A stretch of DNA of 64,000 bases from Mycolicibacterium nivoides (GTDB lineage: Bacteria > Actinomycetota > Actinomycetes > Mycobacteriales > Mycobacteriaceae), in assembly GCF_003855255.1 (NCBI RefSeq), contig NZ_CP034072.1, positions 2,348,430-2,412,429 of the forward strand. Direction: 5' to 3'. This document shows, in pieces, positions 22,085 through 34,415 of the stretch. The notes under the pieces are model-generated. The model did no database searches. It was not told the origin of the DNA and saw only the letters and a list, made by a program, of their open reading frames with translations. Position 1 is the stretch's first letter; each line of letters starts with the position of its first letter. The position numbers and the translations under genes are program-made.

Positions 22085-22678
22085 ATGTCCGACAGCGCCG
22101 TCACCCGTCGCAGCAAGGCCAAGTCCGATCGCCGCGGCCAGCTGATCGCTGCCGCCGAACGGCTTGTGGCCGAACGCGGTTATCTCGCGGTGCGCCTGGA
22201 GGACATCGGCTCTGCCGTCGGAATCAGCGGACCGGCCATCTACCGGCACTTCCCCAACAAGGAAGCCCTGCTGGTCGAACTGCTCGTCGGGATCAGTACC
22301 CGCCTGCTCGCCGGGGCACAGGAAGTCACCGCGGCCGACGAAGATCCCGCCGACACCCTAAACAGCCTGGTGGACTTCCACCTCGACTTCGTCTTCGGCG
22401 AATCCGATCTGATCCGCATCCAGGATCGCGACCTGGCCCACCTGCCCGACGCGGCCCGGCGACAGGTGCGCCGCGCCCAGCGGCAGTACGTGGAGATCTG
22501 GGTGACGGTCCTGACGCGGCTCGACCCGGGCCTGGCCGAGGACGATGCCCGGGTAATGGCCCATGCCGCGTTCGGCCTGCTGAACTCGACCCCGTACAGC
22601 GTGAGACCCGCTGTGCCCAAGACACATTCACGCGCAGTGCTGCGCCGCATGACGCTGGCGGCGCTCACCTCGGGCTAG
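22085..22678 (+). CDS. bkaR: TetR-family repressor of the branched-chain keto-acid operon
   Basis: The 197-residue protein has an N-terminal TetR helix-turn-helix (about residues 15-62: GQLIAAAERLVAERGYLAVRLEDIG, then GISGPAIYRHFPNKEALLVEL) and a C-terminal ligand-binding helical domain. It is divergent from accD1 across the 41-bp palindrome. By synteny it is the Rv2506 orthologue, described in mycobacteria as BkaR, which represses the neighbouring operon. In M. tuberculosis scoA, scoB and fadD35 lie between accD1 and this regulator; here they are absent. The start has GGAGG 7 bases upstream. Confidence 0.9.
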   Translation: MSDSAVTRRSKAKSDRRGQLIAAAERLVAERGYLAVRLEDIGSAVGISGPAIYRHFPNKEALLVELLVGISTRLLAGAQEVTAADEDPADTLNSLVDFHLDFVFGESDLIRIQDRDLAHLPDAARRQVRRAQRQYVEIWVTVLTRLDPGLAEDDARVMAHAAFGLLNSTPYSVRPAVPKTHSRAVLRRMTLAALTSG

Positions 22679-22721
22679 TTCATCGATTGGCGGTAGCAGG
22701 CAGTCGAGCCTGGCCGAGCCC

Positions 22722-22740
22722 TCTTGACTATGAATCAAGA
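22722..22740. promoter_or_regulatory. TetR-type operator of the first catabolic operon
   Basis: TCTTGACTATGAATCAAGA is a 19-bp palindrome (arms TCTTGA and TCAAGA, 7-bp spacer) 53 bp upstream of the ring-cleavage dioxygenase-like gene. The identical 19 bp recur at 29042-29060 and a variant at 29019-29037, beside the cluster's own TetR gene. Confidence 0.85.
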
Positions 22741-22756
22741 CGGCTGGCAGACTGCC

Positions 22757-22775
22757 TGTTAACCGTCAGTTAACA
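22757..22775. promoter_or_regulatory. Second palindrome in the same promoter region
   Basis: TGTTAACCGTCAGTTAACA has perfect 7-bp arms (TGTTAAC and GTTAACA) around a 5-bp spacer and lies 18 bp before the first start codon of the operon. It differs from the TCTTGA-type operator, so it is either the site of another regulator or a structured 5' leader. Confidence 0.55.
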
Positions 22776-22793
22776 CATTTCCTAGGAGCCACG

Positions 22794-23309
22794 ATGGCCT
22801 CACCCGCCAAACTCGCCCACGTAGTACTGCGCACCGGGCAGCTGCAACCGATGCTCGATTGGTATCTCGAAGTTCTGGAGGGCACGGTGACCTTCGCCAA
22901 TGAGGCCATTGCCTTCCTGACCTACGACGACGAACACCATCGCATCGCGATCGCGAACACCGGAGCCAGCCAGAGGCCGGGAGACAGCCATACCGGCATG
23001 CATCACATTGCCTTCACCTATGCCAACCTCGCCGACCTGCTGGGAACTTACCAGCGACTGAATAACCAAGGGATCAAGCCTTTTTGGACCATCAACCATG
23101 GTCCAACCACATCGATGTACTACGCCGATCCGGACGGCAACAACATCGAACTGCAGATCGACAATTTCGAGACCGACGAGCAGCTTCAGCAGTTCTTCGA
23201 CTCCGGAGCCTTTGCGGCCAATCCGATCGGGGTGGAGTTCGATGCAGCGGAACTACGCGCGCGCTACGAATCCGGTGAGCCGATCGCGGAACTGGTGAAG
23301 CGGCCGTGA
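22794..23309 (+). CDS. Single-domain VOC protein, probable extradiol ring-cleavage dioxygenase
   Basis: The 171-residue vicinal-oxygen-chelate protein begins LAHVVLRT, with the first likely metal His9. The second His is in GMHHIAF (70/71) and the third ligand is Glu119. Residues 100-119 fit the extradiol dioxygenase signature as I recall it from PROSITE: a His two residues in (H102), then Tyr109, D112-P113, Gly115 and Glu119 at the required spacings. This points to meta-cleavage of a catechol rather than glyoxalase chemistry. AGGAG lies 8 bases before the ATG. The stop overlaps the next start (GTGA), tying it to a ring hydroxylase, the expected partner. Substrate unknown. Confidence 0.8.
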   Translation: MASPAKLAHVVLRTGQLQPMLDWYLEVLEGTVTFANEAIAFLTYDDEHHRIAIANTGASQRPGDSHTGMHHIAFTYANLADLLGTYQRLNNQGIKPFWTINHGPTTSMYYADPDGNNIELQIDNFETDEQLQQFFDSGAFAANPIGVEFDAAELRARYESGEPIAELVKRP

Positions 23310-24952
23310 CGGGCTCACTGAGAGCATCTGTCGTCATCGTGGGTGCCGGACCGGTCGGCATGGCAACGGCATTGTCTCTGGGGCGCCACGGCATCCGAAC
23401 CGTCCTGCTCGACAAGCACAAGGGCATAAATCCTCATCCCCGAGCTCATGTGGTGAACACACGTTCCATGGAGTTGTTTCGCCGGTGGGGAATCGTCGAC
23501 GGGATCGTCGAGGACGCCGTCAGCCAGGAGTCTGCCCGCAACATCGTCTGGCGCACGACTCTGACCGGAGAGGAACTCGGAAGAATCGACGTGTTCGGCG
23601 ATGCTGCCAGTGCTGCAACACGCCGACACTCATCTCCACAATCCATCGTCTCGTGTGCCCAGAATCGCGTTCAACAAAGATTGCTCCAGCAATTGATGGA
23701 GCTCGGTCACACCAACATCCGGTATGGAGCGCGCGCCGCGGGTGTCACGCAGGGGCCGTCGGGTGTCACGGTCGATATCAGCACCGATGCCGGGAGCGAA
23801 ACGATCGAGGCCGAGTATTTGGTCGTCGCCGACGGCGCGTCGGGGAGCATCAGTGCCACCATGGGCCTGGAAATGGAGGGCCTACCGCCCTTCGGCCATC
23901 AACTCAACATTTACTTCCACGCCGATCTGCGTCCGCTACTGGGAGACAACCCGGCGATGCTCGTATGGGTTCTCAACTCGACGGCACCAGGCGCGTTCAT
24001 CGGTATGGATGGCGCGCACCGGTGGACGTTCAACATCGGGTTCGACCCGGAAACCGAAACCGTGCAGGACTATCCACCAGCGCGATGCATCCAGCTGATC
24101 AGGGATGCGGCGGGGGTCAGGGACCTACACGTCGATATTCAATCGGTGGGCACCTGGAGCTTTGCGGCCCGCACTGCCAATCGCTACCGCCACGGCCGGG
24201 CATTCCTCGCCGGTGATGCGGCACATCAGTTTCCACCCACCGGCGGGCTGGGTATGAATACCGGATTGGCCGACGCCGACAATCTGGCGTGGAAGCTGGC
24301 TGCAGTTCTGCACGGTTGGGCCAGCGACAGTCTGCTCGACACTTACGAAGCAGAACGACGCCCGGTTGCTCTGTCGAGTGCACAACAAAGTGTCGCCAAT
24401 GCACTGAACATGTCCGAAGTTGGAATCGGACCTTCGGCGGTCGCTGTCGCCGGTCGACTGGAAAGCGCCGATGCCTCGGTTCGGGCCGCCGAGCGTGCGC
24501 ATCTCTCCGTGGCGATACCGCGTCAACGCGGGCACTTCGACGCCCTGGATCAGGAGATCGGCCACATCTATTTCCACGATGGTCCGCCCCGCGTCGTGGA
24601 CGTGGCGACCGTCGGCGCCCGGCTGCCACACGCCTGGATCCTACGAGATGGGACACCTTGTTCGACAATTGATTTGGCAGCATCTGGCTACATATTGGTA
24701 GTGGGGCGGTCCGGATCTGCATGGGCCGGGAAACTGGCCGACTCTGCGCTGGGACGGCGCATTCCGTGGACTGAGTTGACTATTGGCCGCGACATCGAAC
24801 TGCTGAACACCGATCCCTTCGACATCGGCGACGACGGTGCCGTATTGATTCGACCTGACGGGTATGTGGCATGGATCAGCGGTGAGTTAGCGGTCGGCAC
24901 CCGCTCCGGAGCATTCAGCGAAGACCTATGCGCAGGACCTTCGGTCGGGTGA
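23306..24952 (+). CDS. FAD-dependent aromatic ring hydroxylase (class A flavoprotein monooxygenase)
   Basis: The 548-residue enzyme of the phenol hydroxylase/MhpA/TfdB type carries the FAD-binding GAGPVGMATALSLGRHG (residues 12-28) and the second FAD motif GDAAHQFPPTGGLGMNTGLAD near 302-320. The C-terminal third looks like the thioredoxin-fold domain of this group. It would insert oxygen into a phenolic ring with NAD(P)H, giving a catechol for the dioxygenase encoded just upstream. GTG start coupled to the preceding stop. From neighbours alone the substrate cannot be named; a hydroxylated arylalkanoate or a phenol are both plausible. Confidence 0.85.
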   Translation: MTGSLRASVVIVGAGPVGMATALSLGRHGIRTVLLDKHKGINPHPRAHVVNTRSMELFRRWGIVDGIVEDAVSQESARNIVWRTTLTGEELGRIDVFGDAASAATRRHSSPQSIVSCAQNRVQQRLLQQLMELGHTNIRYGARAAGVTQGPSGVTVDISTDAGSETIEAEYLVVADGASGSISATMGLEMEGLPPFGHQLNIYFHADLRPLLGDNPAMLVWVLNSTAPGAFIGMDGAHRWTFNIGFDPETETVQDYPPARCIQLIRDAAGVRDLHVDIQSVGTWSFAARTANRYRHGRAFLAGDAAHQFPPTGGLGMNTGLADADNLAWKLAAVLHGWASDSLLDTYEAERRPVALSSAQQSVANALNMSEVGIGPSAVAVAGRLESADASVRAAERAHLSVAIPRQRGHFDALDQEIGHIYFHDGPPRVVDVATVGARLPHAWILRDGTPCSTIDLAASGYILVVGRSGSAWAGKLADSALGRRIPWTELTIGRDIELLNTDPFDIGDDGAVLIRPDGYVAWISGELAVGTRSGAFSEDLCAGPSVG

Positions 24953-27900
24953 AGCGCATGGACATCATGGAGGATGAATGCATCGTGCACTTGACGGGGA
25001 TCCAGGCGCTGGCCCGCATGGTCTTCGAGGTCCGGCGTGCAGATCTACGTGCTGGCATGGACACGGCCGGCTTCGTGTCGGGATATGAAGGATCGCCGCT
25101 GGCGGGTTTCGATACCGAGCTGAGCAGACACACCGATCTCCTTCATCATCTGGGGATCGTGTTCCAGCCCGCGGTGAACGAGGAACTGGCGGCCACAGCG
25201 GTCCAGGGCTCTCAATTGGCGGCGACGCAACCAGGCAGCCGGGTTTCGGGGGTCACCGGATTCTGGTACGGCAAATCTCCGGGCCTGGACCGCGCATCCG
25301 ACGCGATCCGGCACGCCAACCTGATGGGAACCCATCCCGACGGGGGCGTCGTAGCGCTGGTAGGCGACGACCCGGCCGCCAAATCGTCAACAGTGCCGGG
25401 CGCGTCAGAGTACCTGCTCGCCGACTTGGGCATCCCGACGCTCTATCCGGCAGACCCGCAGGAACTCATCGACTTCGGGATGCACGCCGTGGCGTTGTCA
25501 CGTGCTTCGGGACTGTGGACGGCACTCAAGGTCGTGACCAATGTCGCCGACGCCAGCGGGACCATCAATCCGGCTGGCTCCAGGATCGGTCTCGTTGAGC
25601 ATGCTGCGGGCGAATCGCCATACCGACACCGTGTCAGTGCGCACATGCTGCAACCGTCACTGGAGCAATACGAGATCACCCGCGACGGCATCCGCCGTGA
25701 CATCGCCACCCGCTACGCCGCGGCCAATGGCCTCAACCCGATAACTGGAGACCGCACCGAGGCCCGTATCGGTATTGCAGCAGCCGGCAAGACCTACCTT
25801 GACCTGATGGCTGCCCTGCGCATTCTCGGGTTGGACCAACAGGAGTGCGGCCAGCGTGGAATCCGACTGCTCCGCTTCGGAATGATCAATCCGCTCGACA
25901 GTCAGACGCTGTCGAGCTTTGCGGCCGGGCTGTCGGAGCTCATTGTGGTGGAGGACAAGCGGCCGTTTCTGGAGTCTGCCATCAAGGACGCGCTCTACGG
26001 TGTGGCCGGAGCACCCCGCGTCACCGGCAAGAAAGACATTGTCGGCCAACCGCTGTTCGCATTGCACGGCGAACTTGAGCCGGACACGATTGCACTTGGC
26101 CTGGCCCGTCGACTGCGCGACATCGGTGGATTCCCGTCGGTGGACGCCTGGTCGGAGCGTCCGAGGCCACGGCCCAGCATCTCGGCACTGCCTTTGATCA
26201 ACCGGACGCCTTACTTCTGCTCAGGGTGTCCGCATAACAGCTCCGCCAAGGTGCCCGACGGAACTCTGGTCGGTGCCGGGATCGGCTGCCACGGAATGGT
26301 GACATTGATGGACGAGGGCCAGGTCGGCCACGTCACGGGCATGACCCAGATGGGCGGCGAGGGAGCCCAGTGGATCGGGATAGCCCCGTTCGTCGAGCCC
26401 ACCCGCTATGTGCAGAACCTGGGCGACGGAACATTCCATCACTCCGGGAGCCTGGCGATCCGCGCAGCGGTGGCAGCTGGTATCACAATCACCTACAAAC
26501 TGCTTTACAACTCCGCGGTCGCAATGACAGGCGGGCAACAAGCCGTCGGTTTGATGACTGTCGCGCAGATCTGCCGAACGATGGCGGCCGAAGGGGTTGC
26601 GCGCATCATCATCACCACCGAGGACACCACCCGCTATCGCCGCACCGACCTGCCCGCCAATACCAGCGTCTGGGATCGCACCCGCCTCGACGAGGCGCAA
26701 CTGACACTGACCGACACCGCGGGTGTCACCCTACTGATCCACGACCAAGAGTGCGCAACGGAACTGCGGCGCAAGAGAAAACGCGGACTGACACCCGCAC
26801 CTTCCCAGCGGATCTTCATCAACGAACGGGTATGCGAGGGATGCGGTGACTGCGGGCAGAAGTCCAACTGCCTGTCGGTGATTCCGGTTGACACCGAATT
26901 CGGCCGCAAGACGCACATCGACCAGTCGTCGTGCAACCAGGATCTGGCATGCCTGGCCGGTGACTGCCCGTCGTTCATCTCGGTCACCACCTCGGGTTCC
27001 GGACGCCGCAGATTCGACGCGATTCCTGAAGTCGCCGCTGTCGCCGATCCGTCGGTTCCGGAGTGGTCCGTGCACACCACCCGCATCGCCGGAATCGGAG
27101 GATCCGGTGTAGTCACGCTGGCGCAAATCCTTGCCACCGCGGCAGCACAGTCAGGTATCCATGTCCGGGCTCTCGACCAGACCGGCTTGGCGCAGAAGGG
27201 CGGAGCGGTAATCTCCGACATCAAGCTCACCCGCCGGGAATCCGTGACCGCGCACAAGGCAGCGAGTGGTGAATGCGATCTATATCTGGGCTGTGACCTG
27301 CTGGTAGCCGCGGATCCGAAGCACTTGACGGCGGCAGATCCGCACCGGACCGTTGCCGTCGTCTCGAGCAGCGAGGTGCCCACCGGACGCATGGTCGTCG
27401 ACCCGACTGTCGGCTATCCAGACCACGATCTGCTGGAAGCCCCGATACGGGCTGCGTCCAGGCGCACCATGGTTCTCGACGCCCGACGCGCTTCCAACAC
27501 ATTGCTGGGTGACGAGCAATACGCAAACCTGCTCCTCGTCGGGGCCGCCTACCAAATCGGTGCTCTGCCACTGCCCGCATCAGCCATCGAGAACGCCATC
27601 GCCACAAACGGCGTCAAGGTCGAGGCCAACATTGCAGCACTGCGCTACGGGCGGTTCGCCGTCGCCGACCCAGGAGGTTTTGCCGAGATGTTGGCAGCTC
27701 GATCAGCCGCGCCGGCGTCGCCGCCACAGAGCCCCACCGCAGATCGGCTCATCGATCGTGTGGGACCCACAGCAGGATCGGAACTGTTGCGGCTCTTGCG
27801 GATACGGATACCGGAGTTGATCGCCTATCAGGACGTGCGCTATGCCGAACAGTACAGCGATTTCGTCTCCGGGGTGCTGCGTGCCGAAGCCGCCAAAGCG

Positions 27901-28410
27901 CCTGGTTCCACGGCGTTAACCGAGGCGGTCGCCGCCAACTTGTACAAGCTGATGGCATACAAAGACGAGTACGAGGTGGCGCGCCTGTCCCTTGACCCAG
28001 CCGTACATGCCGCGATTCGTGCGGAATTCGGTGCGGACGCTGCGGTGAGCTACCGCCTGCATCCGCCCGCGCTGAGAGCGATGGGGATGCAGCGCAAACT
28101 CGAACTCGGACCCTGGATCAGGCCGGCATTTCGGGTCCTGATCGCCATGCGCAGGCTCCGCGGTACCGCACTCGACCCCTTCGGCCATGCACGCGTGCGT
28201 CGACTCGAGCGCGCGCTCATCGGCGAGTACCGCCAGACAGTCGAGGCCGTCCTTCGCGGACTGTCACCGGCGAATATCCAACTGGCGGTGGAGATCGCCA
28301 GGCTGCCGGACGGTATCCGGGGTTACGAATCAATCAAGACCGAGTCGGTGCACCGCTACCGCGCAGAGCTTGCTGAAGCCCTGGCCCGGTACCCTGCCGG
28401 TCACGACTGA
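24949..28410 (+). CDS. Fused indolepyruvate:ferredoxin oxidoreductase-family enzyme (2-oxoacid to acyl-CoA)
   Basis: The 1153-residue fusion is ordered as the pyrimidine-binding transketolase-like domain (VSGYEGSPLAGFDTEL near the start), the thiamine diphosphate domain (YFCSGCPHNSSAKVPDG, then GIGCHGMV and MGGEGAQWIG), a cysteine-rich iron-sulfur segment (VCEGCGDCGQKSNC near 630 and three further Cys downstream), and the gamma domain (GIGGSGVVTLAQILATAAA near 716). This matches fused IorA-IorB enzymes, which decarboxylate arylpyruvates or related 2-oxoacids to acyl-CoA while reducing ferredoxin. The GTG at 24949 is chosen for its GTGA overlap with the hydroxylase stop; ATGs at 24928, 24958 and 24967 are alternatives. 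No ferredoxin gene is adjacent. Confidence 0.87.
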   Translation: MKRMDIMEDECIVHLTGIQALARMVFEVRRADLRAGMDTAGFVSGYEGSPLAGFDTELSRHTDLLHHLGIVFQPAVNEELAATAVQGSQLAATQPGSRVSGVTGFWYGKSPGLDRASDAIRHANLMGTHPDGGVVALVGDDPAAKSSTVPGASEYLLADLGIPTLYPADPQELIDFGMHAVALSRASGLWTALKVVTNVADASGTINPAGSRIGLVEHAAGESPYRHRVSAHMLQPSLEQYEITRDGIRRDIATRYAAANGLNPITGDRTEARIGIAAAGKTYLDLMAALRILGLDQQECGQRGIRLLRFGMINPLDSQTLSSFAAGLSELIVVEDKRPFLESAIKDALYGVAGAPRVTGKKDIVGQPLFALHGELEPDTIALGLARRLRDIGGFPSVDAWSERPRPRPSISALPLINRTPYFCSGCPHNSSAKVPDGTLVGAGIGCHGMVTLMDEGQVGHVTGMTQMGGEGAQWIGIAPFVEPTRYVQNLGDGTFHHSGSLAIRAAVAAGITITYKLLYNSAVAMTGGQQAVGLMTVAQICRTMAAEGVARIIITTEDTTRYRRTDLPANTSVWDRTRLDEAQLTLTDTAGVTLLIHDQECATELRRKRKRGLTPAPSQRIFINERVCEGCGDCGQKSNCLSVIPVDTEFGRKTHIDQSSCNQDLACLAGDCPSFISVTTSGSGRRRFDAIPEVAAVADPSVPEWSVHTTRIAGIGGSGVVTLAQILATAAAQSGIHVRALDQTGLAQKGGAVISDIKLTRRESVTAHKAASGECDLYLGCDLLVAADPKHLTAADPHRTVAVVSSSEVPTGRMVVDPTVGYPDHDLLEAPIRAASRRTMVLDARRASNTLLGDEQYANLLLVGAAYQIGALPLPASAIENAIATNGVKVEANIAALRYGRFAVADPGGFAEMLAARSAAPASPPQSPTADRLIDRVGPTAGSELLRLLRIRIPELIAYQDVRYAEQYSDFVSGVLRAEAAKAPGSTALTEAVAANLYKLMAYKDEYEVARLSLDPAVHAAIRAEFGADAAVSYRLHPPALRAMGMQRKLELGPWIRPAFRVLIAMRRLRGTALDPFGHARVRRLERALIGEYRQTVEAVLRGLSPANIQLAVEIARLPDGIRGYESIKTESVHRYRAELAEALARYPAGHD

Positions 28411-28412
28411 GC

Positions 28413-28991
28413 CTACCGTTCGGGGCTGACCGCGGATTCCGCCGTTGCCGAGGCCACCAACGCGTCGATCAGCAACCGCACGATCTCACCGATCGGGCGG
28501 TCCAGGTCGCGTTGGCTTACCAGCAGCCCCTCGAACAGCACGTGCGCAACGTCGGCAATCGCGGCCGTGTCGTACCCAGCAGGCAATCGCTGTTCCACCG
28601 ACAACAGCAGCTGGCACTCCAGCCACTCGGCCGTCTCGGAGTACACCGCGCGCAGCCCTTGGGATTCGGCCATTCTTTCGTACGCCTCGCGGTGAATGAT
28701 CCGGTAAGCCTTGGTGGCCTCAAGAAGCCTGACCAATTTCTCCTCGGGTGTGACGTCGAGATCCTCGACGTCAGCACGAGCCTCGTCGAAGATCTGGCCG
28801 AGCACGGCAGCGAAAAGATCGTCTTTGGTGGGGAAGTACCAATGCACGGCGGCGCTGGCAATGCCGGCGGCCTTGCCCACCTGGGTGACGCTGGTGGCGC
28901 GATAGCCCTTGGCCACGAACAGCTGTCGTGCATGGGAAAGCACTTCGGCCTGGCGGTCGGCCTTTGGTATCTGTTGGCGGTTCCGAGCCAT
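28413..28991 (-). CDS. TetR-family regulator of the catabolic cluster
   Basis: The 192-residue protein has the TetR DNA-binding domain at residues 10-57 (HARQLFVAKGYRATSVTQVG, then SAAVHWYFPTKDDLFAAVL) and a C-terminal effector domain resembling TetR_C families. It is divergent from the hydrolase operon, with two copies of the TCTTGA-N7-TCAAGA palindrome in the shared gap, and ends 2 bp after the big oxidoreductase gene of the other operon. The third copy lies before the dioxygenase gene. The layout makes it the likely repressor of both operons and of itself, relieved by a pathway intermediate, perhaps an acyl-CoA. The ATG at 28991 is preferred over an upstream in-frame start at 29015. Confidence 0.85.
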   Translation of the reverse strand: MARNRQQIPKADRQAEVLSHARQLFVAKGYRATSVTQVGKAAGIASAAVHWYFPTKDDLFAAVLGQIFDEARADVEDLDVTPEEKLVRLLEATKAYRIIHREAYERMAESQGLRAVYSETAEWLECQLLLSVEQRLPAGYDTAAIADVAHVLFEGLLVSQRDLDRPIGEIVRLLIDALVASATAESAVSPER

Positions 28992-29018
28992 GACCTCAAC
29001 CCTAGTCCCGCGCACCCC

Positions 29019-29060
29019 TCTTGACTAATGATCAAGATCCGTCTTGACTATGAATCAAGA
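29019..29060. promoter_or_regulatory. Two TetR-type operators in the divergent promoter region
   Basis: TCTTGACTAATGATCAAGA (29019-29037) and TCTTGACTATGAATCAAGA (29042-29060) have the same arms and a 7-bp spacer, with start positions 23 bp apart, close to two helical turns. The second is identical to the site at 22722-22740. They sit between the TetR gene and the hydrolase gene. Confidence 0.88.
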
Positions 29061-29088
29061 GACCTGGTTCGAACCGAGAGGTTGTTTC

Positions 29089-29940
29089 ATGCGGCTGTAC
29101 AACACGACGAGCGGTTGGGCTCGCGAGGACCAACCAGGAGTGCTCTCACTCCTGGCAGCCTCCGAGGGGACGGGGATCGATTCCGTCGAAACGCTGGCCA
29201 CATCGGCGGTGCGTTCCGAGATCCCACTGGATCAGGCTCATCTGCTGGCCCCAGTTCGGCGTCCGGGAAAGATCCTGATCATCGGTCTGAACTACCCCAG
29301 CCACGCCGAAGAGGCCCGCGCGGTACTCGCCGCACTCGGCAAGGCGGAGGCCGACCTGCCAACCGAACCGACCTTCTCGATCGTGGCCGGTAGCGCTGTG
29401 ACGAATCCCGGCGAGAGGATCCGACTGCCCGTGATCGCCGCCGAACAGGTTGACTACGAAGGCGAGTTGGCCGTTGTCATCGGACGGGAATGTGCCGACG
29501 TCTCTGCGGACGAAGGGTGGTCCTGCGTCGCCGGATTCACCATCGGCAATGACGTCTCGGCCCGCGACATCCAACGCCGCGCGATGCACGGTGACCCAGC
29601 AGCATCGATCGGACTTGCCAAGAGCCTAGACACCTTCAAACCGCTGGGGCCGTGCCTGGTCACAACTGACGAGTTCGATGGTCTACCCGATCTTTCCATT
29701 CAAACCCGAGTCAACGGCGAACTTCGCCAAGATGATCGGACCGGGACCATGCTGCATCCGATTCCGGAGTTGATCTCCCACCTCTCCCGCTATCTCACCT
29801 TGAATCCCGGTGACGTGATCTGTACGGGCACTCCAAAGGGGGCGGGATTCTTCTCAGGCCGGTTCCTGGCGCCCGGGGACGAGGTGACCGTCGCGATCGA
29901 GCGAATCGGCACACTGTCGAACCCGGTCGGTGCGGCATGA
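29089..29940 (+). CDS. Fumarylacetoacetate-hydrolase (FAH) family protein
   Basis: The 283-residue protein has the family's metal ligands: the Glu pair in VDYEGELAVVIGR (about residues 121-133) and the Asp in IGNDVSARD near 162, followed by KSLDTFKPLGPCLV and late GDVICTGTPKGAGFF. Such proteins are C-C hydrolases (acylpyruvate or fumarylpyruvate cleavage) or isomerases/decarboxylases of ring-cleavage products, which fits the dioxygenase in this cluster. The ATG at 29089 has GAGAGG 11 bases before and lies downstream of the operator; earlier in-frame starts fall inside the operator. It is coupled to the CoA ligase by ATGA. Confidence 0.85.
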   Translation: MRLYNTTSGWAREDQPGVLSLLAASEGTGIDSVETLATSAVRSEIPLDQAHLLAPVRRPGKILIIGLNYPSHAEEARAVLAALGKAEADLPTEPTFSIVAGSAVTNPGERIRLPVIAAEQVDYEGELAVVIGRECADVSADEGWSCVAGFTIGNDVSARDIQRRAMHGDPAASIGLAKSLDTFKPLGPCLVTTDEFDGLPDLSIQTRVNGELRQDDRTGTMLHPIPELISHLSRYLTLNPGDVICTGTPKGAGFFSGRFLAPGDEVTVAIERIGTLSNPVGAA

Positions 29941-31781
29941 TCTGCTCCACTGATCCGGTCGAATGGTTGAAACATGTTGAATCCGAACCACTGTCTGATC
30001 GAGATCTGCCGGAGAGCAGTTACGCACTACTGTGCGGTGCTGCAGCCAAATTTCCGGACCGTGATGCAGTTCACCACCTTCCACGCGGGTTGATCCCGGG
30101 GGCGCATTCCTGGACATACCGTCGGCTGCTCCACAACGTCCACCAAGGTGCCAACCTATTCTACGAACTCGGCGTCGAGCCGAACGGGGTCATCGCAACC
30201 CTGCTACCCAACGGACCAGCCACCTTTCAGGCGATCTTGGGCGCTCAACTGATCGGGGTCATCAACCCGGTGAACCCCGCGCTGCGCGCGGAGCACATTG
30301 CCGACATCGCCGAGCTGACCGGTGCCCGGGTACTCCTTTGCCCCGCACCGCAATCGGACATCGACCTATGGGGAAAGGCCAACGAGGTCGCGTGCCGCAT
30401 GCCCGGGCTTCGGCTCGTCACGGTCGGCGGTCCTGCCGGATTCGAGGAGATGGCATCCCGACAGCCGGGCGACCGACCGCGATTCGATCATCGTCCACAA
30501 CCCGACGATGTCGCGGCATACTTCCATACCGGTGGGACGACCGGCATTCCGAAAGTGGCTGTGCACACCCACGCCAACCAGATCTACACAAGTTGGGCGA
30601 TCGCACTCGCGTTGGGCTTCGACCAGGACAGCGTGCTGCTGTCCGGGCTGCCGCTGTTTCACGTCAACGCCTTGCACGTCGCCACATTGGCGCCCATGTT
30701 CGCCGGAGGCGCCTCAGTCAGCCTGGGACCGGACGGGTACCGCGACCCCGCCGCGATCGCCGGGTTCTGGGGCATTGTGCAGGATTACCGCGTTACGGCG
30801 TTTTCCGCAGTACCCACCGTCTATTCGACACTGCCTCCCCTGCCTGTCGATGTCGACGTGTCGTCTGTCCGCTACGGAATCGTCGGCGCTGCACCACTTC
30901 CCGACCGGGTCCGGACCAACTTCGAGCAGTCCACCGGCATCCCTATGATCGAGGGATACGGACTCACCGAGGGGACCTGTGCCAGCGTGATCGCTCCGCT
31001 CGCAGGGACACGTGTGGACAGGCTGGGACTGCGCCTGCCCTACCAGCAGATCAAGGCTGTGCGAATCGACGCGGATGGCGAGCGTTACGTCAACTGCAGA
31101 CCGGGCGAGACAGGGGTGCTCGCGATCGCCGGACCCAACGTGTTTCCCGGGTACCTTCGGCACGAGGACGAAGTGCGGTACCCAGACCCTAGCGGAACCG
31201 TGGACGATGGCTGGCTCATCACCGGTGACCTCGGCGCCGTGGATGAGGACGGGTTCGTCACGCTTATCGGCAGGAGTAAGGACGTCATCATCCGCGGTGG
31301 CCACAACATTGACCCTCGTCCGATCGAAGCGGTTCTCCTACAACACGACGACGTCACCGGCGCGGCAGTGGTGGCACGGCCGGACGCGCATTCCGGCGAG
31401 GTTCCGGCAGCCTACGTCACCGTACGGGAGGGCGCCGACAGTACCGAGGAGGAGCTGATGCGCTGGCTGCAATCGCGTTGCCCGGAGCCGGCCTCGGCGC
31501 CCAAGTTCGTCCATAAGATATCCGCGCTGCCGATGACGGCCGTGGGCAAGGTCAACAAGGCAGCTCTGGTTCGGGACTGTATCTTGCGGGTTGCCCGCAC
31601 CGAACTCGGCCGATTCGGCGATGAGGCATTAGTGGATATCGGCGATGAAGAGGGATCCGCCGGAACTGTACGGATCCGCTTGCCTGCGGGCACTTCTCGT
31701 GAACTGGCCGGAGATCTGCGCGACCGCATGAATCGGTACCCAGTGACCGTCCACGTAACGACGGACGAAGTGGGTTCCTAG
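29937..31781 (+). CDS. AMP-dependent acyl/aryl-CoA ligase
   Basis: The 614-residue member of the acyl-adenylate superfamily has the phosphate loop YFHTGGTTGIPKVAVHTH (near 197-214), GYGLTEGT near 340, the hinge-side motif GWLITGDLGAVDEDGFVTLIGRSKD and the catalytic Lys in MTAVGKVNKAAL near 538. It would activate a carboxylic acid, either the pathway substrate or a product of the FAH-family hydrolase, with ATP and CoA. After the usual domain there is an extension of about 70 residues with no motif I recognise. ATG start overlapping the hydrolase stop. Confidence 0.85.
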   Translation: MICSTDPVEWLKHVESEPLSDRDLPESSYALLCGAAAKFPDRDAVHHLPRGLIPGAHSWTYRRLLHNVHQGANLFYELGVEPNGVIATLLPNGPATFQAILGAQLIGVINPVNPALRAEHIADIAELTGARVLLCPAPQSDIDLWGKANEVACRMPGLRLVTVGGPAGFEEMASRQPGDRPRFDHRPQPDDVAAYFHTGGTTGIPKVAVHTHANQIYTSWAIALALGFDQDSVLLSGLPLFHVNALHVATLAPMFAGGASVSLGPDGYRDPAAIAGFWGIVQDYRVTAFSAVPTVYSTLPPLPVDVDVSSVRYGIVGAAPLPDRVRTNFEQSTGIPMIEGYGLTEGTCASVIAPLAGTRVDRLGLRLPYQQIKAVRIDADGERYVNCRPGETGVLAIAGPNVFPGYLRHEDEVRYPDPSGTVDDGWLITGDLGAVDEDGFVTLIGRSKDVIIRGGHNIDPRPIEAVLLQHDDVTGAAVVARPDAHSGEVPAAYVTVREGADSTEEELMRWLQSRCPEPASAPKFVHKISALPMTAVGKVNKAALVRDCILRVARTELGRFGDEALVDIGDEEGSAGTVRIRLPAGTSRELAGDLRDRMNRYPVTVHVTTDEVGS

Positions 31782-32149
31782 TGCCCGCCGAGTACGTGAC
31801 GTATGTGGGTAGGGCACTGTTCGCCATGCTGTTCGTGTTGGCAGGTACGGCTCAAGTGATCGCCCCCCATCGGGATGCTGAACTTGCCGCGGTCCGGCGT
31901 GTCCGTTTTGTCACGCCAGGACTAGTCAGGCTGGGCGGGGTCGTTCAAGCATTGGCAGGGATAGCTGTGATCCTGGGGATCCGGACCACCGTGGCAGCCG
32001 GGATGCTGGCTGTGTTCCTGGTGGTCGCGACACTCACGATGCACCGGTTTTGGGCCGCTGAAGATCCGGCGGAGCGAGCCTCCGAGCAGGCGCACTTCCT
32101 GAAGAACGTCGCCCTGATCGGCGGCGCACTGGTGGTGTCGGTTGCCTGA
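31781..32149 (+). CDS. DoxX-family small membrane protein
   Basis: The 122-residue protein has four hydrophobic helices (VGRALFAMLFVLAGTAQVIAP, a middle pair, and NVALIGGALVVSV at the end), the DoxX/DoxD layout. Some DoxX proteins belong to thiosulfate-quinone or redox complexes; in catabolic clusters their role is mostly unknown. The GTG start shares its first base with the ligase stop (TAGTG), so it is the last gene of the operon. No terminator is evident after it. Confidence 0.8.
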   Translation: MPAEYVTYVGRALFAMLFVLAGTAQVIAPHRDAELAAVRRVRFVTPGLVRLGGVVQALAGIAVILGIRTTVAAGMLAVFLVVATLTMHRFWAAEDPAERASEQAHFLKNVALIGGALVVSVA

Positions 32150-32168
32150 CAGCGAAGAGGAGAAAGCG

Positions 32169-32291
32169 GTCCATCGCTGCTACCGACGCCTCCATCGAGC
32201 GGGGGCCGGTAGCCCCACACAACTCGTCAGCGACGATGTCCACGATGCGGCCATCAATCGCATTACGCTGACCGATCAGCTCCAACAACCA
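32169..32291 (-). pseudogene. Decayed fragment resembling the N-terminus of 13E12/DUF222-family proteins
   Basis: On the minus strand this stretch reads WLLELIGQRNAIDGRIVDIV and then ADELCGATGPRSMEASVAAM. That resembles the DUF222 part of REP13E12-like HNH proteins (ERNAIDGRIVEIV, CGATGARS), which are multicopy in mycobacteria. Beyond about 32165 the similarity stops and no HNH motif follows. No start codon or ribosome binding site is credible. It is probably a remnant left by recombination at the right edge of the catabolic cluster. The family match is by memory, not by search. Confidence 0.45.
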
Positions 32292-32426
32292 ACTCCGTGA
32301 ACAACCCCTCCGCACGCTGCTCAGGACACACCTCAGCATCGAAAGATGCTGAGGGCGAAGACATAACGTCATTGCCTCAGGAGGGTACGACACGTTTCTG
32401 GACCTCACCCAGTCGGTAGCCGCCAG

Positions 32427-34292
32427 CTAGACGTCGAAGGCCTTGATCAGCCAGCGGGTCATGGCATCCACCAGGACCGCGCGGTTTTCGCGCTTGATGA
32501 TCTCGTGACCGTCGTCGGCGAACGTCAGCATCTCCACGGTGCGGCCCAGCGCACGCAACGCGTCGAACATCTGTTGCGATTCGCTCGGCGGCACGTTGGT
32601 GTCGTTGGCACCGTGCACCAGGAGCAGCGGCGCCGTCAGCGCGTGTGCCCGCAGCAGCGGCGACAGCCGCTCCAACAGCTCCCGGTCACCGACCGGATGA
32701 CCGTATTTCGGATAAGCCGCCGCCGCGATCCACGGCTCGGTGTTGCGGTAGAAGGTGTTCAGATCGCTCATGCCGCAGATGCTGATCCCTGCCGCGAACA
32801 GCTCCGGGTGAAATGTCAACGCCGCCTGGGTCAGATAGCCGCCATAGGACCACCCGCAACAGGCAATTCGGTCGGCGGCAGCGTAGCCGTTGTCGACGAG
32901 GTAGCTCACGCAGTCGGCGACGTCGTCGATGGCCGCGAACCGCAATTCCTTGTCGTCGGCGTGCATGAACGCGCGACCGAATCCACCGGATCCGCGCACA
33001 TTCGGTGTCAGCACGGTGATCCCGGCTTCCAGCAGCTGCGGATAGAACTCGTTGTAGTCGGGCCGCGACTGACCCTCCGGACCGCCGTGCAGAAAGATCA
33101 TCGCGCCGATCGGTTCGGCGTCAGGTTCGTACAACCAGGCGTTGAGTTCCAGCCCGTCGCGCGCGGTGATTCGCGCCAAAGTCGGTGTCCCGGTGAGCGG
33201 ACCGACGCTCGGATCGCGGTCGATCCGCTCCCATTCGCGGGTGCGTGGGTCGACGAGTTCGACCGTGGGAGGCAATGACGGCCCCTGGACCGTCATCGCC
33301 ACCATGGAGCCACCGGCACTGATGCTCAATTCGGTGGCGACCATGCCGGGTAACGGAATCGGCTCGGACAGCGTCCCGTCGGCGTACTGGAGGATCTGAA
33401 GTTCGCTGCAACCGTCGATGTTCCACAGCATCGCCACCGTCGACAGATCATCACTGACCACGAACTCGTCGAGCTCATAGCCAGGACGCTCGGCAACGAC
33501 GTAATAGCCGACCCCGTCGGCGGTGACGGTCACTTCGAGCAGCCGGGCATGCGACGCCCCGTTCTCGCTCCGAATCAGCGCCCGCACATAGCCATCCGTA
33601 CTGTCGGAACTGTAGGACTTGGCCGGTTCGACCAGTGACATCGCGTCCCCGTCGAACCCGGTGCGCAGCCGGCGGGGTTGGTGATCGTCGAGGATCACGC
33701 CGATGTCGGTGGTCGAGCCCGGATCGTAGGGCAGCAGACCGATTTCGGTGAGTCCCCACAGCATGATGAGCTCCCGGTAGCCGCGTGGGCCGACCCGCAC
33801 CAGCGAAGCGCCGGCCCATGAATCCACCAGGCGGCCACCCGAACGGCGGTCGAGAACGACGATGTCCCCCGAGGCGGGGTCGATCAGGCAGGAACTACCG
33901 ACGCCGTCCTCTCCGGTCAGGATCGCCGCCACCTGTGTCCCATCCCAACCGATCAGTTCCGCGGTGCCCTCGGCGACATCGGGCGACCAGTGATCGATGC
34001 GACGCGCGTCCCGGTCATCCGGGTCGGTGGTCACCACCCAGATCTGGGTGCGCGACGCACCGTCCGGAGCCACCTCGCAGGCCAGCCAATGGCCATCGGC
34101 GGAATGGATGACTTTCGTCACGGGACCGGCCACGGGCAGTTCGACGTCGCGCGAGGAGCTGGCGCGCCATCCCCGCAGGAAGCGCTGCACCGCCCGTGGA
34201 TAGCCGCCATCGTCGACCAAGTGGGCGAATGCCGTCGCATCCGGTGACAGCGACGCGCCGTAGTTCACCCGCACATGCCGATCCGCGGCCAC
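32427..34292 (-). CDS. Prolyl-oligopeptidase-family (S9) serine peptidase
   Basis: The protein has about 621 residues. The N-terminal 370 are a beta-propeller-like domain with repeated short strand motifs; the C-terminal 240 are an alpha/beta hydrolase. The catalytic triad is visible: the Ser in CCGWSYGGYLTQAA (near 482), the Asp in LLLVHGANDTNVPPSES and the His in FADDGHEIIKRENR. There is no signal peptide, so it is cytoplasmic. I prefer the GTG at 34292, with GGGAGG 7 bases upstream, over the GTG at 34310. It is the first gene right of the DUF222-like relic and is divergent from the MmpS-like gene. Substrate unknown; acylaminoacyl-peptidase activity is possible. Confidence 0.85.
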   Translation of the reverse strand: MAADRHVRVNYGASLSPDATAFAHLVDDGGYPRAVQRFLRGWRASSSRDVELPVAGPVTKVIHSADGHWLACEVAPDGASRTQIWVVTTDPDDRDARRIDHWSPDVAEGTAELIGWDGTQVAAILTGEDGVGSSCLIDPASGDIVVLDRRSGGRLVDSWAGASLVRVGPRGYRELIMLWGLTEIGLLPYDPGSTTDIGVILDDHQPRRLRTGFDGDAMSLVEPAKSYSSDSTDGYVRALIRSENGASHARLLEVTVTADGVGYYVVAERPGYELDEFVVSDDLSTVAMLWNIDGCSELQILQYADGTLSEPIPLPGMVATELSISAGGSMVAMTVQGPSLPPTVELVDPRTREWERIDRDPSVGPLTGTPTLARITARDGLELNAWLYEPDAEPIGAMIFLHGGPEGQSRPDYNEFYPQLLEAGITVLTPNVRGSGGFGRAFMHADDKELRFAAIDDVADCVSYLVDNGYAAADRIACCGWSYGGYLTQAALTFHPELFAAGISICGMSDLNTFYRNTEPWIAAAAYPKYGHPVGDRELLERLSPLLRAHALTAPLLLVHGANDTNVPPSESQQMFDALRALGRTVEMLTFADDGHEIIKRENRAVLVDAMTRWLIKAFDV

Positions 34293-34415
34293 CTCACGTC
34301 CTCCCGTCACTTATGCAGTCCTCTCCAGCATCTCTCATCATCACGCAATCGCCCGGGACCTCGGCCGCAGCGGACTGAGCATCCGCACAGGTACCCTCGC
34401 AGCCATGAGGTGGGC

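Follow-up and report, generated by a model that had tools for sequence, protein, structure and literature searches.

The locus considered here lies in Mycolicibacterium nivoides, within a stretch of 64,000 nucleotides (contig NZ_CP034072.1, positions 2,348,430 to 2,412,429 of the forward strand; the window), and it raises the question of what seven genes lodged between the TetR gene bkaR and an S9 peptidase gene do for their host. The set spans 22794-32149 of the window and consists of two operons and a divergent TetR gene (Table 1). The first operon encodes a single-domain VOC protein, an FAD-dependent ring hydroxylase (FMO) and a fused 2-oxoacid:ferredoxin oxidoreductase of the IOR type, while the second encodes a FAH-family hydrolase, an acyl-CoA ligase and a DoxX protein; neighbouring listed frames inside each operon overlap by 1-25 bases. 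A preliminary description had named seven genes at this place as an aromatic catabolic cluster, and profile searches found all of them there with matches to the named families. The answer favoured here, and regarded as rather probable, is that the locus was gained by horizontal transfer and serves, under TetR control, to break down a phenol; its enzymes would work in the order of hydroxylation, cleavage, hydrolysis and entry into CoA, with reactions and order inferred from the genes.

The cluster is real, acquired and beyond chance, because the exact operators are confined to it, the gene set recurs in other taxa and the site is empty in all five relatives opened. In these relatives (L233-L237, five of the six best matches in a bkaR search of 117 other genomes) bkaR, as the preliminary description called the TetR gene at 22085-22678, directly adjoins the S9 peptidase gene, which in the window is the immediate right-hand neighbour of the insertion (32427-34310). 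The GC content of the insertion is 62.8%, below every one of 66 overlapping same-sized tiles elsewhere in the window (64.8-69.5%). At the insertion ends neither repeats nor an integrase gene was seen, and there were no direct repeats of at least 9 bases between 22651-22790 and 32141-32440.

A shared operator ties the two operons together. The 17-base palindrome CTTGACTA-N3-ATCAAG matches the 6.9 Mb genome exactly at three places, reading CTTGACTATGAATCAAG at sites 1 and 3 and CTTGACTAATGATCAAG at site 2, and all of them precede these two operons. Co-regulation of the operons is therefore well supported at the level of sequence, in agreement with the earlier suggestion of joint control under one TetR regulator. 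The regulator would repress both operons through the three palindromes and be released by the substrate or an intermediate; as the operator is small and the regulator single, the inducer, and hence the substrate, should be directly findable. When two mismatches were allowed, four more sites appeared in the genome, against four for a reversed-pattern control. A shorter form, CTTGA-N7-TCAAG, is present in the sister clusters L090 and L093, the latter with a tandem pair 23 bp apart, and only TTGA-N7-TCAA is present in L092. Among other, partly overlapping loci totalling 2.95 Mb, the shorter form occurs twice, both times inside VOC cassettes (L202, L025). Of the nine sister clusters searched, six (L089, L091, L003, L004, L115, L132) have neither form, so that the operator there has diverged or is placed elsewhere. 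The TetR relatives in nine aligned sister clusters are 35-58% identical. A sigma-70 promoter scan, uninformative for this organism, gave no match.

The association of the genes was measured in a survey that started from the VOC protein. A VOC profile search of 384 genomes of the class found 18 places in 16 genomes; once the window was set aside and two places on a shared contig were merged, 16 scored regions remained. These measure 11-20 kb, except for contig 28 of genome G246, whose two stretches (L188 and L175, about 32 kb) were counted once. The 59 controls were regions of at least 15 kb round related hydroxylases (61 of the 78 loci L005-L082, minus the VOC cassettes L025 and L028); they are unmatched in taxonomy to the scored regions, include many polyketide-type neighbourhoods, and contain no VOC match (0/59). 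FAH was present in 15 of the 16 VOC regions vs 2/59 controls (Fisher p = 9e-13), and a thiamine-dependent 2-oxoacid enzyme in 9/16 vs 0/59 (Fisher p = 9e-8). An FAD hydroxylase of the same superfamily accompanied the VOC gene in 14/16 regions; the corresponding 59/59 of the controls follows from their choice. The 2-oxoacid enzymes were of two kinds, IOR (two regions) and an AceE-like E1 (seven), with none of either in the controls. The E1 model drew on E1 proteins from four scored regions (L191, L198, L199, L200) and from L133 and L135, and the IOR model on the window IOR only; L115 and L175 contributed to the FAH and VOC models, and without L175 the count of 2-oxoacid enzymes falls to 8/16. 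Two weak E1 matches were left uncounted: that of L193 (170 bits, at the edge) and that of L115 (114 bits). Four such E1 proteins have transketolase-type domains, and that of L200 scores 224 bits with the NCBIfam model of homodimeric pyruvate dehydrogenase E1, under its cut-off of 860.

The hydroxylase clade itself is rare: within the genus it occurs in 6 of 297 genomes, with 48-52% identity for the five besides the window, and at over 800 bits it is matched only by G635 among 393 other genomes of the class sample and by none of 297 others of the order sample. All six genus members have FAH and a TetR relative close to the hydroxylase, and all six have VOC, adjacent or at most two genes off in five and 12 kb off in G245. 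The expectation of the preliminary description that the genes occur jointly in other genomes is thus borne out for FAH, VOC and FMO, which travel together. Four of these six (window, G179, G183, G245) also have a linked IOR, and within the same-genus sample IOR co-occurs modestly with the FMO clade (4/6 vs 65/291, p = 0.028). Four likewise have a linked CoA ligase, which in the window is of the PRK07529 type and in G179, G190 and G245 is an acetoacetate-CoA ligase over the equivalog cut-off. The acetoacetate-CoA ligase is over the TIGR01217 cut-off in three of five sister clusters (L089, L090, L092) and is annotated in L133 and L136. Beyond the genus, the order FAH, TetR, VOC, FMO, IOR is common to Streptomyces TSRI0281 (L004), G635 (L115) and a plasmid of Streptomyces NBC_00984 (L132); two Rhodococcus plasmids carry VOC, FAH, FMO and acetoacetate-CoA ligase; and a lichen Paraburkholderia has an E1 annotated mdeB and an E2 beside VOC and FAH. 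The loci L003, L004, L089-L093 and L173 and the plasmid loci were picked via FMO, IOR or VOC matches and stand outside the p-values; plasmid records were opened for 6 of 61 with VOC and 5 of 212 with IOR.

The history of the 2-oxoacid enzyme provides the strongest argument for a 2-oxoacid as an intermediate. A tree of 24 IORs, in which the non-cassette rows were selected by hand from a larger number found, requires six or more changes of state to place the nine cassette-linked ones. Such changes can be gains or losses of linkage. These nine show no more clustering than randomly shuffled labels do, 233 of 500 shuffles giving a count as low. The window VOC and the VOCs of eight sister clusters form one group, with support of 94/90 that falls just below the starred level. 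The scatter of IOR linkage on the tree, together with an unrelated E1 that fills the same slot, suggests that a 2-oxoacid enzyme was recruited repeatedly to the cassette, and such recruitment would mark a 2-oxoacid as an intermediate. One row of the tree, L183, is labelled non-cassette despite FAH and a ligase. This Rhodococcus opacus plasmid locus (L183:4946-18103) encodes an IOR 65% identical to that of the window with a ligase, FAH, an alpha-hydroxyacid oxidase and a benzoylformate decarboxylase, which suggests that its IOR may serve a mandelate-like pathway.

The same enzyme could be read along the lines of estrogen catabolism. A larger phenol would then be meta-cleaved, IOR would take the 2-oxoacid of the cleavage product directly, like EdcC, and FAH would act later. 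Hydroxylase, VOC enzyme and IOR do stand together in this cluster, and YceI proteins, which bind lipids, are encoded in L089, L091 and L173. Yet FAH is present in nearly all cassettes and IOR is not, the AceE-like E1 that fills the IOR slot is an enzyme type for small 2-oxoacids, and no beta-oxidation gene is present in the insertion. In favour of this reading, the available text on N. tardaugens reports that EdcC, of the IOR family, is needed after ring-A cleavage of 4-hydroxyestrone, that deletion of the IOR gene halts the pathway after ring cleavage, and that a VOC-domain gene adjoins (PMC7793797); against it, actinobacterial estrogen degraders are described without EdcC in the part available of a review (PMC12507874). 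An estrogen-type role is considered unlikely.

In the favoured phenol pathway, FMO would hydroxylate the phenol and so form a diol of the catechol type, which the VOC protein would open by extradiol cleavage; from the resulting 2,4-dioxo acid the FAH-family enzyme would release a short 2-oxoacid together with another acid, probably a 3-oxoacid. IOR would then turn the 2-oxoacid into an acyl-CoA by oxidative decarboxylation, with reduction of ferredoxin, the ligase would make the CoA ester of the other acid, and DoxX may protect from, or reduce, quinones of the diol. The preliminary description had proposed hydroxylation, meta-cleavage, hydrolysis and CoA entry in this order, and the comparative data support it, above all through the recurring IOR or AceE-like E1.

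The predicted active sites are well kept. Across 30 aligned VOC sequences H9, H71, H102 and E119 are invariant and Y109 nearly so; by the roles of extradiol dioxygenases, H9/H71/E119 are presumed to form the 2-His-1-Glu metal site, and H102 and Y109 the second shell. The VOC model (pLDDT 88) has the VOC fold. In FMO, the GxGxxG glycines and the GD motif are invariant (8 sequences). In FAH, H87, E90, E139, E141 and D170 are invariant in 19/19 sequences and are taken here to be the metal triad and the His/Glu pair. The FAH consensus of 19 homologues starts MRLYxT, which fits the Met at ATG 29089, and the longer frame would open inside operator site 3, so that 29089 is probably the start. The best FAH profile is 2,4-didehydro-3-deoxy-L-rhamnonate hydrolase, a 2,4-diketoacid hydrolase (150 bits). 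The 1160-residue IOR matches PRK13030 over residues 16-1155 (1413.6 bits vs a cut-off of 816) and has POR, TPP_enzyme_C and DUF6537 domains. The fused IOR-type enzyme of the preliminary description is thereby upheld as a family assignment, but the NCBIfam cut-offs of IOR_alpha and IOR_beta are not reached, and therefore indolepyruvate is no established substrate.

Several observations weigh against the favoured reading. IOR itself is in just 2 of the 16 unbiased regions and nowhere in the cassette genomes G120 and G190, so that it is dispensable for the core, and the mandelate-type genes that adjoin other IORs imply that IOR substrates vary. An E2 stands beside E1 in L135 only. The AMP/CoA ligase is present in 4/16 regions vs 5/59 controls (p = 0.09, not significant); it is common in the window's own clade, and its generality is not supported by the 16-region set. 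A 43% hydroxylase relative in Fodinicola (L026) is preceded by 10 kb without VOC or FAH, and its contig ends right after. The rhamnonate hydrolase score of FAH is far under the cut-off of 500 and nearly tied with HpaG isomerase/decarboxylase (147 bits), and both HpaG-type and diketorhamnonate hydrolases are among its matches to solved structures. The extradiol signature fits 13/18 and 25/30 aligned VOCs. Finally, the matches of the VOC sequence include fosfomycin-resistance and glyoxalase chains besides dioxygenases, and the VOC fold is tied across many VOC chains, by which the reaction is not settled.

These last likenesses bear on two further explanations. FMO, VOC and DoxX could detoxify or modify an antibiotic or a quinone, with unrelated metabolic genes alongside; the VOC kinship just given and the resemblance of FMO to polyketide and rifampin monooxygenases speak for this, and DoxX stands beside extradiol genes in Bacillus quinone operons. 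No listed NCBIfam model reaches its cut-off with VOC or FMO (for VOC, the best named dioxygenase model gives 26.7 bits, cut-off 320.2), while FAH and the 2-oxoacid enzymes are strongly tied to VOC and would be superfluous for a resistance gene, which makes detoxification very improbable. The other explanation is a route resembling those of hydroquinone and homogentisate, where VOC would cleave a para-diol, FAH would yield acetoacetate and a C4 acid, and IOR would serve an upstream arylpyruvate. The best PDB sequence match of VOC is indeed 9u42 (E = 2.9e-8), titled homogentisate 1,2-dioxygenase of Acinetobacter, and acetoacetate-CoA ligase occurs in sister clusters, but the match is weak and shared in fold with many other VOC chains, and the cluster is without an arylpyruvate-forming or isomerase gene; such a route is judged quite improbable.

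As to the substrate of the phenol pathway, acetoacetate-CoA ligase in the sister clusters points to a product that would include a 3-oxoacid. The best-fitting class is resorcinol-type, for example orcinol or an alkylresorcinol, an inferred assignment that is offered tentatively and with the balance somewhat against it. The orcinol route leads to a 2,4,6-trioxo acid, hence to pyruvate and acetoacetate or a longer 3-oxoacid; the product of the orcinol/methylhydroquinone route would, by the chemistry of orcinol, split to pyruvate and acetoacetate as proposed here. A longer 3-oxoacid, such as an alkylresorcinol would yield, would be a fitting substrate for the PRK07529 ligase of the window. Ligases of this type over the cut-off are likewise present in L188 and L190, and a gene over the acetoacetate-CoA ligase cut-off is present elsewhere in the same genome as the window. 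The route via trihydroxytoluene and 2,4,6-trioxoheptanoate, compared by description from the parts available, resembles the present cluster in its flavoprotein hydroxylase and extradiol dioxygenase (PMC8571283, PMC4572682), and the trioxo acid is named there as an intermediate of the fenitrothion pathway (PMC8571283). No orcinol gene cluster was found for comparison.

Known systems share parts of this logic. The estrogen 4,5-seco edc cluster has a ring hydroxylase, a VOC-superfamily extradiol dioxygenase and a fused IOR in succession; in the descriptions available it differs by a P450 hydroxylase, beta-oxidation genes and no named FAH, and IOR of the EdcC type is reported from Pseudomonadota (PMC7793797, PMC12507874). 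In the A-ring pathways for flavonoids (fde) and isoflavones (ifc) an FAD monooxygenase is followed by a small glyoxalase-type dioxygenase, as here, whereas in the available ifc text an alpha/beta hydrolase and cupins appear, and neither 'ferredoxin oxidoreductase' nor 'fumarylacetoacetate' occurs (PMC11069340, PMC11303751). Plain fde/ifc homology was set aside: in the DNA retrieved, the FMO relatives in Variovorax loci are without a window-type VOC, and L073 had a weak FAH match. Unlike those loci, a Variovorax boronicumulans plasmid (L131:1106-17710) has FMO and VOC with FAH, an ABC transporter and a xanthine dehydrogenase-type gene set. The acetosyringone asd cluster likewise joins an FAD monooxygenase and a VOC gene but has two alpha/beta hydrolases, and 'fumarylacetoacetate' and 'CoA ligase' are absent from the text available (PMC12911418). 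Riboflavin/lumichrome catabolism, which also leads to acetoacetate and pyruvate, was rejected because its Rieske, P450 and xanthine oxidase genes, as given in the part available, are absent from the cluster (PMC12746152), and so were the mhqO-type dioxygenase systems, whose available description has alpha/beta hydrolases and leaves FAH unmentioned (PMC12673573).

Searches of open-licence PMC papers brought up no report of FMO, VOC and FAH together with IOR or acetoacetate-CoA ligase, nor of such a set with a substrate. The earlier claim of an undescribed combination stands to that extent, but the hydroxylase, extradiol and IOR logic is known from the available account of estrogen catabolism (PMC7793797). 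The FAH-based combination is most likely catabolic, a variant of the meta-cleavage pathways within a broader cassette family, for which no established name came up. It may even belong to an unnamed, widespread module of VOC, FAH and FMO in Actinobacteria and Proteobacteria, with an IOR or AceE-like E1 that burns the FAH-released 2-oxoacid as its hallmark and hydroxylases that vary by resorcinol-type natural product; the dedicated 2-oxoacid enzyme would be kept because the 2-oxoacid is often not pyruvate. This wider proposal is a serious possibility that stops somewhat short of probable. If it holds, the gene signature would mark a family of phenol catabolic pathways in two phyla, and a ferredoxin-linked 2-oxoacid enzyme would act in aerobic catabolism beyond amino acid and estrogen metabolism.

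Table 1. Features of the acquired segment and its regulatory sites (window positions)
Feature	Position	Strand	Remarks
Acquired segment between bkaR and S9 peptidase gene	22679..32426	.	9,748 bp between stop codons; empty site in relatives, low GC
Operator site 1, upstream of VOC-FMO-IOR	22723..22739	.	exact pattern match
Single-domain VOC protein, proposed extradiol ring-cleavage dioxygenase	22794..23309	+	PF00903
FAD-dependent ring hydroxylase (FMO)	23306..24952	+	PF01494 + PF21274
Fused 2-oxoacid:ferredoxin oxidoreductase, IOR type	24928..28410	+	PRK13030; start codon uncertain
TetR-family regulator, divergent from FAH operon	28413..29015	-	PF00440; ATG 28991 possible start
Operator site 2, between TetR and FAH	29020..29036	.	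exact pattern match
Operator site 3, 23 bp after site 2	29043..29059	.	exact pattern match
FAH-family hydrolase	29089..29940	+	PF01557; start set by alignment; listed ORF 29044-29940
Acyl-CoA ligase, PRK07529 subfamily	29937..31781	+	648.4 bits, cut-off 632
Small DoxX-family membrane protein	31781..32149	+	PF07681, 29.3 bits, cut-off 23.6

The right end of the insertion is occupied by a 92-residue minus-strand open frame (32151-32426); a possible likeness to a mycobacterial repeat protein was considered, but no Pfam match was over the cut-off. Other cassettes show additional copies and companions. For example, G246 has a VOC paralogue next to FAH (L175:3987-4487) that lacks the stretch bearing the second-shell His and the metal-binding Glu, and 6 kb from it a full-length VOC that is 53% identical to that of the window. 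G183 has a second cassette (L240:9477-18259) with VOC, FAH, FMO, an AMP ligase and an AceE-like E1, and second VOC copies are also present in G179 and G120. The YceI-like proteins of the three IOR-bearing cassettes are encoded at L089:14098-14679, L091:8761-9294 and L173:11655-12245, and weaker YceI matches lie near VOC-less hydroxylases in L121, L124 and L125.

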